This document shows positions 20,480-47,374 of a stretch of DNA of 64,000 bases, in pieces. A program made the translations under genes and the position numbers. The notes under the pieces are model-generated. The model searched no databases and was not told the DNA's origin. It saw nothing but the letters and a program-made list of their open reading frames with translations. Each line of letters starts with the position of its first letter. The first letter of the stretch is position 1. Source of the DNA: Colwellia sp. PAMC 21821 (GTDB lineage: Bacteria; Pseudomonadota; Gammaproteobacteria; Enterobacterales; Alteromonadaceae); assembly GCF_002077175.1 (NCBI RefSeq), contig NZ_CP014943.1:620001-684000 (forward strand), written 5' to 3'.

Positions 20480-21435
20480 TAAATTAATATTGATAAAATA
20501 GCTAGCCACTCACCATTTGCGTTTTTTAAGTAAATTTAAAGCTTTCAAAAACAAACTAATACCTTCAAATCAAACTATTTTCTAAGAGATAATCCATAAT
20601 AATCTAATTTGGTATACAATTATTAAAAGCGATAATACAAAAGGATTTGTTCTTGGGCATCACAGTTAAAAATAAACGAAAACTAGGACTGCTGTTATTT
20701 GTAGTTTTATTTTCTCGCAGCGCTATTTCGGCCAGTATCAATATTGTTACTGAACATCTGGCACCATTCCAAATTGTTAAAGATAATGCAATCAGTGGGC
20801 TTTCAACTCAAATTATCGAGGCAACATTAAAGGAAGCAAACATTGCTTATCAAATAGATGCTCTCCCTTGGTCGCTATCTTATAATCTTGCGTTAAAAGA
20901 AGAAAACACCTGTATATACTCAATAGTGCGAATTCCACAACGAGATGCGCTTTTTCAATGGGTAGGACACATCGCAACCAGCTCAACTTCATTCTACTCT
21001 TTAAGAAATAATCCTATCAAACTCAGTTCTTTAGAACAGGCAAAAGATTATAAAGTTGCGGTTATAAAGGATGATATTGCGCACCATTATCTGCTATCGA
21101 AAGGCTTTATTGAAAACAAAAACATCTATGTTATGGATAATAATGAAGCGTTACTCAAGTTACTTGAAGTCCCTAGTCGTCAAATTGATTTAATCGTAAT
21201 TAATGACGATTTACTCACTAACAGAGTAAATAATGCTATTGAATCATCTAAATATAAAAATGTGCATACCTTTGATAATTTCAAATTTGAGTTTTATTTT
21301 GCCTGCAGTTTGAAAACAGATAAATCAATTATTCAATCGCTTAGCAAAGCCATGGATAAATTAGAAAAAGAGGGTGTTTTTGCTAGCATAAAAAGAAAGT
21401 GGCAACACAGGATGGGTAATATAATCTAAGTAATA
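20480..21435. repeat. Tandem duplication, unit 1 (956 bp)
   Basis: This segment recurs almost unchanged at 21690-22645, offset by exactly 1210 bases. It covers the whole leader and coding region of the solute-binding protein gene. Only about a dozen base differences were noticed, most of them near the signal-peptide codons. Confidence 0.9.
20653..21429 (+). CDS. Periplasmic solute-binding protein family 3 (copy 1)
   Basis: A 258-residue exported protein of the SBP_bac_3 amino-acid-binding type. A signal peptide (about residues 1-27, ending SAISA-SI) precedes a two-lobed binding fold, with NIVTEHLAPFQIV near the start and a C-terminal LEKEGVFASIKRKW. No permease or ATPase gene is near, so it may be an orphan binding protein of the kind found in gammaproteobacterial signalling or moonlighting. 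The TTG at 20653 is preferred because AAGGA lies seven bases upstream. An in-frame TTG at 20647 is too close to it, and no ATG exists nearby. Confidence 0.82.
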   Translation: MGITVKNKRKLGLLLFVVLFSRSAISASINIVTEHLAPFQIVKDNAISGLSTQIIEATLKEANIAYQIDALPWSLSYNLALKEENTCIYSIVRIPQRDALFQWVGHIATSSTSFYSLRNNPIKLSSLEQAKDYKVAVIKDDIAHHYLLSKGFIENKNIYVMDNNEALLKLLEVPSRQIDLIVINDDLLTNRVNNAIESSKYKNVHTFDNFKFEFYFACSLKTDKSIIQSLSKAMDKLEKEGVFASIKRKWQHRMGNII

Positions 21436-24117: not shown

Positions 24118-24660
24118 TTTGGCTCCCTGTGTGATTCAATTAACGTTCGGTTTTTATAACAACTAGCTTTGAAGTTCATCATTACAGCTAACGGTTAGTC
24201 TAGTGATTAACTTTACCTAGGCTGATTAGTAAAGTCTTGTTGTTTTCGTTAATCTGCAGACATTCAGCGACCGGCACCTTAATTTAGTTCAAATACTGAC
24301 CGTATAGTTGCTTGTAATTAAAGCTATTGTTAACCGCACAAAGCTCAGCCATATCGTTTATTCAACGCACATTTCGATTAATGAACATACTAATTAGTAA
24401 CTCATTTGCTTACTTCTTGATTTATGAATCTCGGGGATAAGATTTTTTTAACAACAAATAGCGCTTATTTAAGCTGCGGAAATTTAACCTGACACAAGCG
24501 ACAATAGTTTGCACAATTATTGTCGAGGTTTTACTGACATTAAATATTTTATTGTGCTAAAAAAGTGCTTATAAAAGAATGGTTGTTGAAATTTACACGT
24601 TATACTTTTAACGTTTTCTCGATACATTCGATAATAAAAAATACAACATTAAGGTCAAAA
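24118..24660. other. 543-base divergent intergenic region
   Basis: It separates the M20 gene (minus strand) from the SDR gene (plus strand), so it must hold both promoters. An inverted repeat ACGTTA (24597-24602) / TAACGT (24609-24614) lies about 45 bases before the SDR start and could be an operator. No gene, RNA or terminator was recognised. Confidence 0.4.
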
Positions 24661-45493: not shown

Positions 45494-45591
45494 TAATACC
45501 AAATGTAATAAGTTATTGACCAATTTTAAGCGAGGATAAATTGTTCAAGAATACATGTTTATTGTTCCAGACTAAACATAAGTACCTGCAT

Positions 45592-45888
45592 ATATGGACC
45601 CACTCCGTTTGCAAGACATTTAATCGTTATGTAAGAGAAAATCATTGCTCTCATATATCCGGCCTGTTTATGAAGGATTTTTACCTTCTGGCCCCGATGG
45701 TTGTTTGCGCTCACACTCCTCATCATCCCTCCGGCTTTTTTATTAGCCAATGCAGGTACCAGGTTTTGTGCAAGCCAGTCTGACTATCTTACCATCCGAT
45801 TAATTTATCTTTTGCAACTGAAGTAAAAGGGTTTTACTGTTATCTCATCACTGAAACCAATCTAACTTGCTTCAGTTTTGAGCTTTAT
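45592..45888 (-). ncRNA. Candidate bridge RNA of the IS110/IS1111 element
   Basis: The non-coding end downstream of the transposase. ATGCAGGTAC (45750-45759) is the exact reverse complement of the left target flank GTACCTGCAT (45582-45591). CATCCCT (45724-45730) equals the right side of the rejoined target, including the core. Between them GGCT (45733-45736) and AGCC (45745-45748) form a small hairpin. In a minus-strand transcript this gives left guide, hairpin and right guide, pairing with opposite target strands, as in published IS110 bridge RNAs. The exact RNA ends and the donor loop were not resolved. Confidence 0.65.
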
Positions 45889-46905
45889 TTATATAGCCGG
45901 GCGATAACTTTCCCCCTTCGCCATTATTACCCAAGCCATTCTTGCTATTTTATTCGCCACAGCAACGCATGCTTTGTTGTGTCCTCGTCGGGATTTTAAC
46001 GCTTGTGCCCACAAACTAAATCGGTCAGTTTTGTTTTCACTGTGCCTTAATACTGCCCGGGCCCCGTGGATGTATAGTGTTCTTAAATAACTATTACCGC
46101 GTTTACTTATACCGAGTAAGGTGGCCTTTCCACCCGTTGAATGCTGCCCAGGAACAAGCCCAAGCCATGCCGAAAAATGTCGACCATTTACAAAGTCTTT
46201 TCCATCTCCTGCAGCTGCATAAGTAGCGCTAGCTGTGATTGCTCCAATACCTAATATTTCATCTAAGCGAACACATATTTCATTTTCTTTATTCATCGTG
46301 TTTAAGCGAACTTCACACGCTTTAAACTTCACTTCTGTGACTTGAAATTCAAGCCATAACTCATTAAATATCTCCCGACTTAAATACGTTAACTCATTTG
46401 TCGCATCCTCTAAAATATCCGGCAGTTCATTGCGAATTGCAGAAATACCTTTATTGATGACAATGCCATATTCTCCTAACAAGCCTCGTACCTGACTTGC
46501 TAATGCTTTACGTTCTTTCTTTATGCGTTCACGTTGTCGATGGAAGTTTTGAATATCTTGTTGTTCTATCGATTTAATTGGCACAAACCTCATGGTCGGG
46601 CGTTGCGCTGCCTCTGCAATACCTTCGGCATCGTTATAATCATTTTTATTGCCTTTAACGAAGGGTTTTACATATTGAGGCGCAATAAGTTTTACTTGGT
46701 GCCCCAATTCAATAAATTTTCTAGCCCAGTAGTTCGCACTGCCACAAGCTTCCATTACAATTAGGCAAGGCTCTAATGTTGCCATGAAACTCAACACTTG
46801 TTTTCTTCTTAATTGTTTCTTTTTTACAAATCGCCCATTTTTATTCACAGCGAACATGTGAAAAATTGATTTTGCAATGTCTAAACCGATTGTAGTAATC
46901 TTCAT
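45889..46905 (-). CDS. IS110-family DEDD transposase (recombinase)
   Basis: A 338-residue enzyme with an N-terminal RuvC-like DEDD domain: Asp9 (GLDIAK), Glu in IVMEACGSANYWAR and the Asp pair in KNDYNDAEGIAEA. A coiled-coil middle leads to a C-terminal Transposase_20 domain. That domain contains LGIGAITASA, LGLVPGQHSTGGK (Ser is the proposed nucleophile region) and GNSYLRTLYIHGARAV. All key residues appear intact, so the element may be active. GGAG lies upstream of the ATG at 46905. Confidence 0.93.
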   Translation of the reverse strand: MKITTIGLDIAKSIFHMFAVNKNGRFVKKKQLRRKQVLSFMATLEPCLIVMEACGSANYWARKFIELGHQVKLIAPQYVKPFVKGNKNDYNDAEGIAEAAQRPTMRFVPIKSIEQQDIQNFHRQRERIKKERKALASQVRGLLGEYGIVINKGISAIRNELPDILEDATNELTYLSREIFNELWLEFQVTEVKFKACEVRLNTMNKENEICVRLDEILGIGAITASATYAAAGDGKDFVNGRHFSAWLGLVPGQHSTGGKATLLGISKRGNSYLRTLYIHGARAVLRHSENKTDRFSLWAQALKSRRGHNKACVAVANKIARMAWVIMAKGESYRPAI

Positions 46906-47374
46906 GTTGATCCACTCCGCTTTTATAAATGATTGTTATCACTTTCATTTTGGCCCTAAAGAGGCCGGAAATAAAGTTGGAGTGGGTCCATACCATTATC
47001 CCTGCAGGCAAGGCGTTTGATTGATTAGGGCATGGATGCCCGTAAGTAGAACAATGCAGGAGCAATTGTCGAGTAATAGAGGGCGTGTGTGATTGAAAAC
47101 AAAGCAGTTATTGACGATTTAAACCGCCTTAAAATGATCGATTATTTATTTCAATTGGTATAACCAGTGGTTTCGAGAATATGCGCTTACATGGCCTGAT
47201 AAGCAAAACCACGCAACGATAATTAATCCGATGGTTATAACCACCTAAAGCTAGTTGCAGCGTTCCCCGCAGTTATGAAGACTTTACTATGTTAACACTT
47301 CCTTAATGTCATGCAGACTTCACTAAAGTTAAAGTTAAAGTTAACGTTAACAAGTACACCAGTTCTTCAAACAT

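Follow-up and report, generated by a model that had tools for sequence, protein, structure and literature searches.

How an insertion sequence comes to occupy the same short site throughout one genome is the question raised by positions 45592-46999 of the window, the stretch of 64,000 nucleotides from Colwellia sp. PAMC 21821 analysed here. A preliminary description of this DNA had proposed that target guides can be read from the non-coding segment beside the transposase gene, and the matches on which it was built were found as described. The segment at 45750-45759 (ATGCAGGTAC) is the exact reverse complement of 45582-45591 (GTACCTGCAT), and the GGCT (45733-45736) and AGCC (45745-45748) arms of a hairpin sit between this motif and CATCCCT at 45724-45730. 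The latter is identical to the core plus the right flank, as follows from empty sites elsewhere in the genome, which read GTACCTGCATCCCTGCAGG. An IS1111-group insertion sequence whose RNA guides set its landing site is, with a high degree of confidence, the best explanation of the whole.

An IS1111-group element with one preferred site

The element is an IS110-family member of the IS1111 group (Table 1). It measures 1408 bp if the AT core is included at one end only, that of the transposase start. The encoded protein, which also matches the NCBI model 'IS110 family RNA-guided transposase', is a DEDD transposase with the C-terminal Transposase_20 domain that marks the family and group. The two inverted repeats, both TATGGACCCACTCC, are subterminal as in IS1111 elements, lying just inside the element ends with short asymmetric extensions, the longer at the gene-start side; repeats in the group are usually 11-13 bp according to the available part of the published account (PMC11187229). 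The long downstream non-coding region typical of the group is present as a 297-nt stretch (45592-45888) that runs from the stop codon to the right end and contains only short chance frames. The leader between the left end and the transposase (46920-46978) contains a GGCC-rich inverted repeat that by eye recurs in relatives, with a possible regulatory or RNA-pairing role.

Table 1 Features of the element and its target, in window coordinates
Feature	Position	Strand	Evidence
Whole IS1111-type element	45592..46999	-	25 occupied and 18 unoccupied sites compared
Transposase, 338 aa, DEDD_Tnp_IS110 + Transposase_20	45889..46905	-	Pfam; NCBIfam NF033542, E 4.5e-103
Subterminal inverted repeat, element right end (3' of gene)	45593..45606	-	perfect 14-bp inverted repeat with 46979-46992
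Subterminal inverted repeat, element left end (5' of gene)	46979..46992	-	pairs with 45593-45606
Predicted bridge RNA / long seekRNA	45641..45798	-	covariance model R1, 167.8 bits, E 8e-35; compensatory changes, 15 elements
Putative 5' target guide GUACCUGCAU	45750..45759	-	exact 10-nt match; covariation test
Putative 3' target guide AGGGAUG	45724..45730	-	sequence match; covariation test
Hairpin between guides (GGCU...AGCC)	45733..45748	-	helix 4 of conserved structure
Target-loop closing stem, 5' arm GCUUGCAC	45768..45775	-	helix 2
Target-loop closing stem, 3' arm GUGUGAGC	45709..45716	-	helix 2, 7/8 pairs changed on both sides
Candidate donor guide AUAUAUG	45652..45658	-	covaries with right end, 23 distinct types
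TTGCAA, -35-like, promoter only upon end joining	45609..45614	-	window's own ends joined by script
Left target flank GTACCTGC + core AT	45582..45591	+	sequence; occupied and unoccupied sites compared
Core AT + right target flank CCCTGCAGG	46998..47008	+	sequence; occupied and unoccupied sites compared
MITE-like repeat with target, ~262 bp without element	45494..47163	.	24 occupied and 18 unoccupied copies compared

The genome, a single contig of 4.88 Mb, carries 25 full copies and one truncated copy. The full copies are nearly identical to one another, and all 25 have full-length transposase frames without stops. Their junctions are alike, with GTACCTGCAT before and ATCCCTGCAGG after the element (ATCCATGCAGG in L024), and all 25 share one orientation, as is typical of IS1111 elements, although the site GTACCTGCAT / CCCTGCAGG is nearly palindromic. 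Because unoccupied sites read GTACCTGCATCCCTGCAGG, 11 of them exactly, only AT is common to both junctions and is hence the core; the target duplication is limited to this 2-bp AT, present twice, again as in IS1111. The copy of the repeat at 21434, which had been called intact, has one changed target base (GTACCTGCATCCCCGCAGG), in contrast to the 11 exact sites. Copies with the same guides next to different flanks were sought, and the same target was found in 25/25, in one case with a one-base difference.

By setting, 24 full copies lie in a MITE-like repeat with ends TAATACCAA / TTGGTATAA (outer ends read by eye). The remaining copy, L024, was inserted into another repeat, whose likeness to the first is confined to ~30-40 bp around the site and which differs at one target base; a single mismatch within the guided stretch is thus compatible with insertion. 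Since 25 sites are filled and 18 repeat copies are unfilled, the genome amounts to a natural specificity assay. The truncated copy (L034, G000 2339 kb) lacks the right end and the entire RNA through a deletion that begins at the target boundary. The flanks of L024 and L060 contain similar clusters of several palindromes (GTGCATGGATGCAC, TGTACAGGATGTAC) a few tens of bases apart. The left-end sequence had no exact match in the viral contigs scanned.

A predicted conserved RNA downstream of the transposase gene

From an alignment of 15 homologous regions (mean column identity 75%) we obtained a consensus fold that comprises two stems (an outer one and one of 8 bp), a target loop, a hairpin separating the guides, and a second arm; the guides occupy the same two loop strands across this fold. 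On the 15 rows, 97.1% of the cells of its 31 pairs are paired and 16/31 pairs show both-sided changes. Doubly changed cells number 52, against a mean of 14.7 in shuffled alignments, with 0/500 shuffles reaching 52, and against at most 9 when the partners are slid by 1-3 columns, a comparison in which the structure is favoured because it was derived from the same 15-row alignment. The conserved fold that the preliminary description had suggested looking for is therefore found in the homologues, with compensatory changes in the 15 aligned elements. Single-sequence folding was weak for a 111-nt piece (z -1.38, 16/200 shuffles as good), so that comparative evidence was needed; the whole region gave z -3.75.

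The covariance model R1 was built from the 15 rows, and its score for 45641..45798 is that of a training member. Among 75 other loci searched, which partly overlap and in which L165 duplicates a training member, R1 found the RNA at E <=0.01 in 52; in the other 23 it was not found by R1, many of these being pieces at contig ends that retain no more than the left end or part of the gene, and one, L139, having a full-length gene. In the element's own genome, R1 identified 25 places, which are the 25 full copies (150 of 1,107 first-look candidates scored). A match at window positions 24221-24321 (E 0.58) was weak and treated as chance. In Rfam no family was found within the element, and two sub-threshold hits both lie outside it.

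In element orientation, the target reads CCTGCAGGG-AT on the left and AT-GCAGGTAC on the right. GUACCUGCAU, the first guide, is complementary to the right flank (top strand), and AGGGAUG, the second, to the left flank (bottom strand); each includes the core AT. The RNA thus combines a conserved structure with two target-matching stretches, as seekRNAs and bridge RNAs do, and a guide RNA role is predicted for 45641-45798. A top-strand match 5' of the bottom-strand match is the order of IS1111 seekRNAs, reversed in IS110, in the available part of the published account (PMC11187229), and the order here is that of IS1111. The preliminary description had rightly likened the 3'-side placement to IS1111, but had judged the guides in window orientation and so named the order of IS110; the IS110 arrangement, with the guides in reversed order in an RNA located 5' of the gene, does not apply.

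Joined in silico, the ends of the element would read TTGCAA, 16 nt, TATAAT across the junction, and a junction promoter has been published for ISEc11 (PMC11187229, available part). A consensus scan gave no terminator and two promoter-like sites, both antisense to the gene, compared with a higher mean of 4.7 in shuffles; this would fit a promoter that arises in the circle alone.

Guides covary with flanks across relatives

Among Markov-sampled non-coding regions, 17 of 1,500 had a match of at least 10 to either 20-nt flank on either strand. The guide match at the 45592-46999 locus alone is only moderately improbable; it is decisive together with a comparison of 41 elements. These were kept from 67 RNA rows (66 loci), with 40 entering each test, since L058 is without a right flank and L078 without a left flank. 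Scored as the longest exact match, with no register chosen, the 5' guide matched its own right flank over a mean of 6.25 nt against 3.48 in shuffled pairings (n=40). For the 3' guide with its own left flank, the corresponding values were 6.15 and 3.85 (n=40). For either guide, 0/20,000 shuffles reached the observed match, whether overall, within three end-sequence groups or in each group alone (group C being a mixed remainder); the relatives are not independent samples, which the within-group shuffle only partly answers.

The expectation that guides track flanks across relatives thus held, with exceptions. The own flank was not the best match in 11/40 elements for the 5' guide and 17/40 for the 3' guide. 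Poor 5' guide matches include L057, L072 and L075 of the element's own group and L151, L157 and L158 of another, and poor 3' guide matches include L135 and L187; in the 3' guides of the element's own group, a constant GGAT makes up much of the match. Retargeting is clear in L078, from Thalassotalea: this relative, very similar in its RNA scaffold, has GGUACAAACCA against GGUACCUGCAU here, and its CAAACCA is matched by the flank TGGTTTG. Further clear cases are L146 (CCAAAGCG against CGCTTTGG), L144 (CCATTGCG against CGCAATGG), L172 and L173 (eight bases), and L145 and L168 (nine bases).

Before the count, 26 rows were dropped for four reasons: no usable repeat pair or a cut contig (L073, L186, L066, L147, L160, L096, L166, L084, L138, L085 twice, L136, L137, L175, L086, L161, L155, L149, L081, L167), a wrong repeat pair (L150), no aligned row (L082, with coordinates entered by analogy), and a guide loop misaligned in divergent hairpins (L142, L080, L094, L107, as well as several rows without a usable repeat pair). 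Part of this loss came from the automatic inverted-repeat search, which was unsuccessful or wrong for several relatives. Flanks were entered by hand for L075, L078, L140 and the short left flank of L070.

Two observations concern the targets of relatives. Those of the group L057-L075, L112 and L132-L134 are mostly palindromes by eye, with a CANGGATG centre and variable arms, and the contigs carrying them have very different host labels, many being metagenome bins with uncertain labels. L082, L094 and L107 (G014), relatives at 42% identity with a different loop hairpin, have copies that share only short flanks (~GGTG / TGTC), possibly indicating a looser target choice.

A candidate donor segment

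Just after the second arm, the segment AUAUAUG has the same sense as the right end, the core and the first target base. Its counterparts in other elements (AUCUAUG, AUGUACG, AUAUACG, AUAUAAG, AUACAUU, AUAGAUGU, AUGUAG) are each present in their own right end. Over 40 elements with 23 distinct types, an effective number that is lower since donor types group by family, the mean match to the own right end was 6.96 against 4.88 in shuffles (0/20,000). Only five bases match in L057, L059, L156 and L182; in L057, also an outlier for the 5' guide, the right end departs from the donor segment. A partner for the left end was sought by eye in the RNA and none was found, so the donor match concerns the right end only. 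That the match runs into the target is our own reading of these alignments. If so, the third guide would span the right end, the core and at least the first target base, and so would check the integrated state and not only the circle.

Target changes in unoccupied repeats

Pattern searches that limited the allowed differences gave 18 unoccupied repeat copies. Four have a single substitution in the 19-bp target, in each case inside the 14 bp covered by the guides; two share a GTACCATTAT form, which has the bases of the element's own end, and one has the AT doubled. A target change was present in 0/24 occupied and 7/18 unoccupied MITE-like repeats (Fisher 0.0012, small numbers), and in 0/24 and 4/15 when three scar-like sites were excluded (Fisher 0.017). 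In the 15 unoccupied repeats without a scar-like change, 4/285 target sites differ, compared with 3/1,425 flanking sites (Fisher 0.017), with flanks of 80 bp and 15 bp on the two sides. Mutations that spoil pairing and errors of excision would both yield this excess. Flank differences were more frequent in the 24 occupied repeats (19/2,280 sites) than in the 18 empty ones (3/1,710). L053 and L054 (G000 815 kb, 3059 kb) read GTACCATTATCCC and L056 (508 kb) reads GTACCTGCATATCCC, and all three resemble scars left by excision or deletion of the element. The target and the element end have TACC in common.

We consider it possible, leaning slightly towards doubt, that in IS1111 RNAs the third guide reads the product junction and so checks the integrated state, and that repeat copies in this genome escape the element via target changes or excision scars. 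If true, excision would need a check of the integrated state, and a single genome would hold a readable record of guide pressure.

Discussion

At the level of sequence, our analysis establishes the anatomy and ends of the element, its conserved RNA fold, the covariation of guides and flanks, and 25 insertions at the same site. Published work on IS1111 and IS110 suggests how these parts may act together. Excision would join the element ends into a circle, creating the TTGCAA-16-TATAAT promoter at the junction; transcripts would extend past the transposase gene into the downstream non-coding region, and the guide RNA would be cut from them. The two strands of GTACCTGC-AT-CCCTGCAGG would each be paired with one guide of the target loop, GUACCUGCAU or AGGGAU(G), both covering the AT core, and the DEDD transposase would recombine the circle at the target in a single orientation, while the separate AUAUAUG segment would read the right end and core of the element.

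Alternatively, the transposase protein or a folded, palindromic target could determine the site preference, with the RNA-flank matches as by-products. The mostly palindromic targets of the element's own group, seen by eye to have a CANGGATG centre, point in this direction, as do the folded or repeated targets (attC, REP) reported for IS1111 relatives in the available part of PMC11187229. We nevertheless regard it as highly improbable: guides change with flanks despite very similar RNA scaffolds (L078; L144, L145, L146, L172, L173, L178), shuffles within end-sequence groups never reach the observed match, and a single orientation in a near-palindrome requires a cue beyond the fold. Even further from being credible is the idea that the guide matches arose by chance, or that the element simply picked up its 5' guide from a target during movement. 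A 10-nt match is indeed reached by 1.1% of sampled regions, but the conserved fold, with guides in the same two loop strands, and the covariation in 41 elements contradict it.

The 25 copies could instead represent few events if they had spread as passengers of the MITE-like repeat, without independent guided insertion, as might be supposed from the location of 24/25 copies inside that repeat and from their near identity. This is unlikely, since one copy occupies the same site in another repeat, and the same shortened repeat form is occupied in L026 and empty in L043, so that this form was probably hit separately; moreover, covariation across elements is independent of the number of events in this genome.

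The guide-flank pairs of ~40 natural elements provide a tested rule for reading IS1111 RNAs, covering both the location of the guides and the part of the right end that is read, which is useful for target prediction in uncharacterised elements and for the search for programmable recombinases. RNA-guided IS1111 elements and their natural retargeting have already been published; the present element is a new example, for which the natural evidence is unusually good.

Comparison with known systems

The comparisons below refer to the available parts of the published accounts. The recombinase is of the same family as that of IS621, as indicated by PDB sequence matches to IS621 (8wt6, E 6e-5) and ISCro4 (9t56, E 4.2e-6), and the IS621 bridge RNA resembles the RNA predicted here in having two target guides in one loop and a separate donor segment (PMC11208160). 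By contrast, most IS110-group elements carry the RNA on the 5' side, with the guide order reversed, whereas here it lies on the 3' side, and their inverted repeats are 2-3 bp (PMC11208160), compared with 14 bp here.

The seekRNA elements ISEc11, ISPa11, ISKpn4 and ISPst6 are closer in plan, with subterminal inverted repeats and a 3' non-coding region, the top-strand match first and overlapping target matches, as here (PMC11187229). The promoter formed at the circle junction of ISEc11 is comparable to the junction promoter predicted here, and ISKpn4 and ISPa11 have folded or repeated targets to which the present target bears a likeness (PMC11187229). The present element differs from these four in its target, which lies in a MITE-like repeat, and in that the RNA was sequenced for the published IS1111 elements (PMC11187229), whereas here it is deduced by comparison. 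The natural retargeting seen between ISXne4 and ISEc11, in which similar scaffolds carry different guides that match different flanks (PMC11187229), recurs among the relatives analysed here, with the difference that it has now been tested on 41 elements with shuffled controls.
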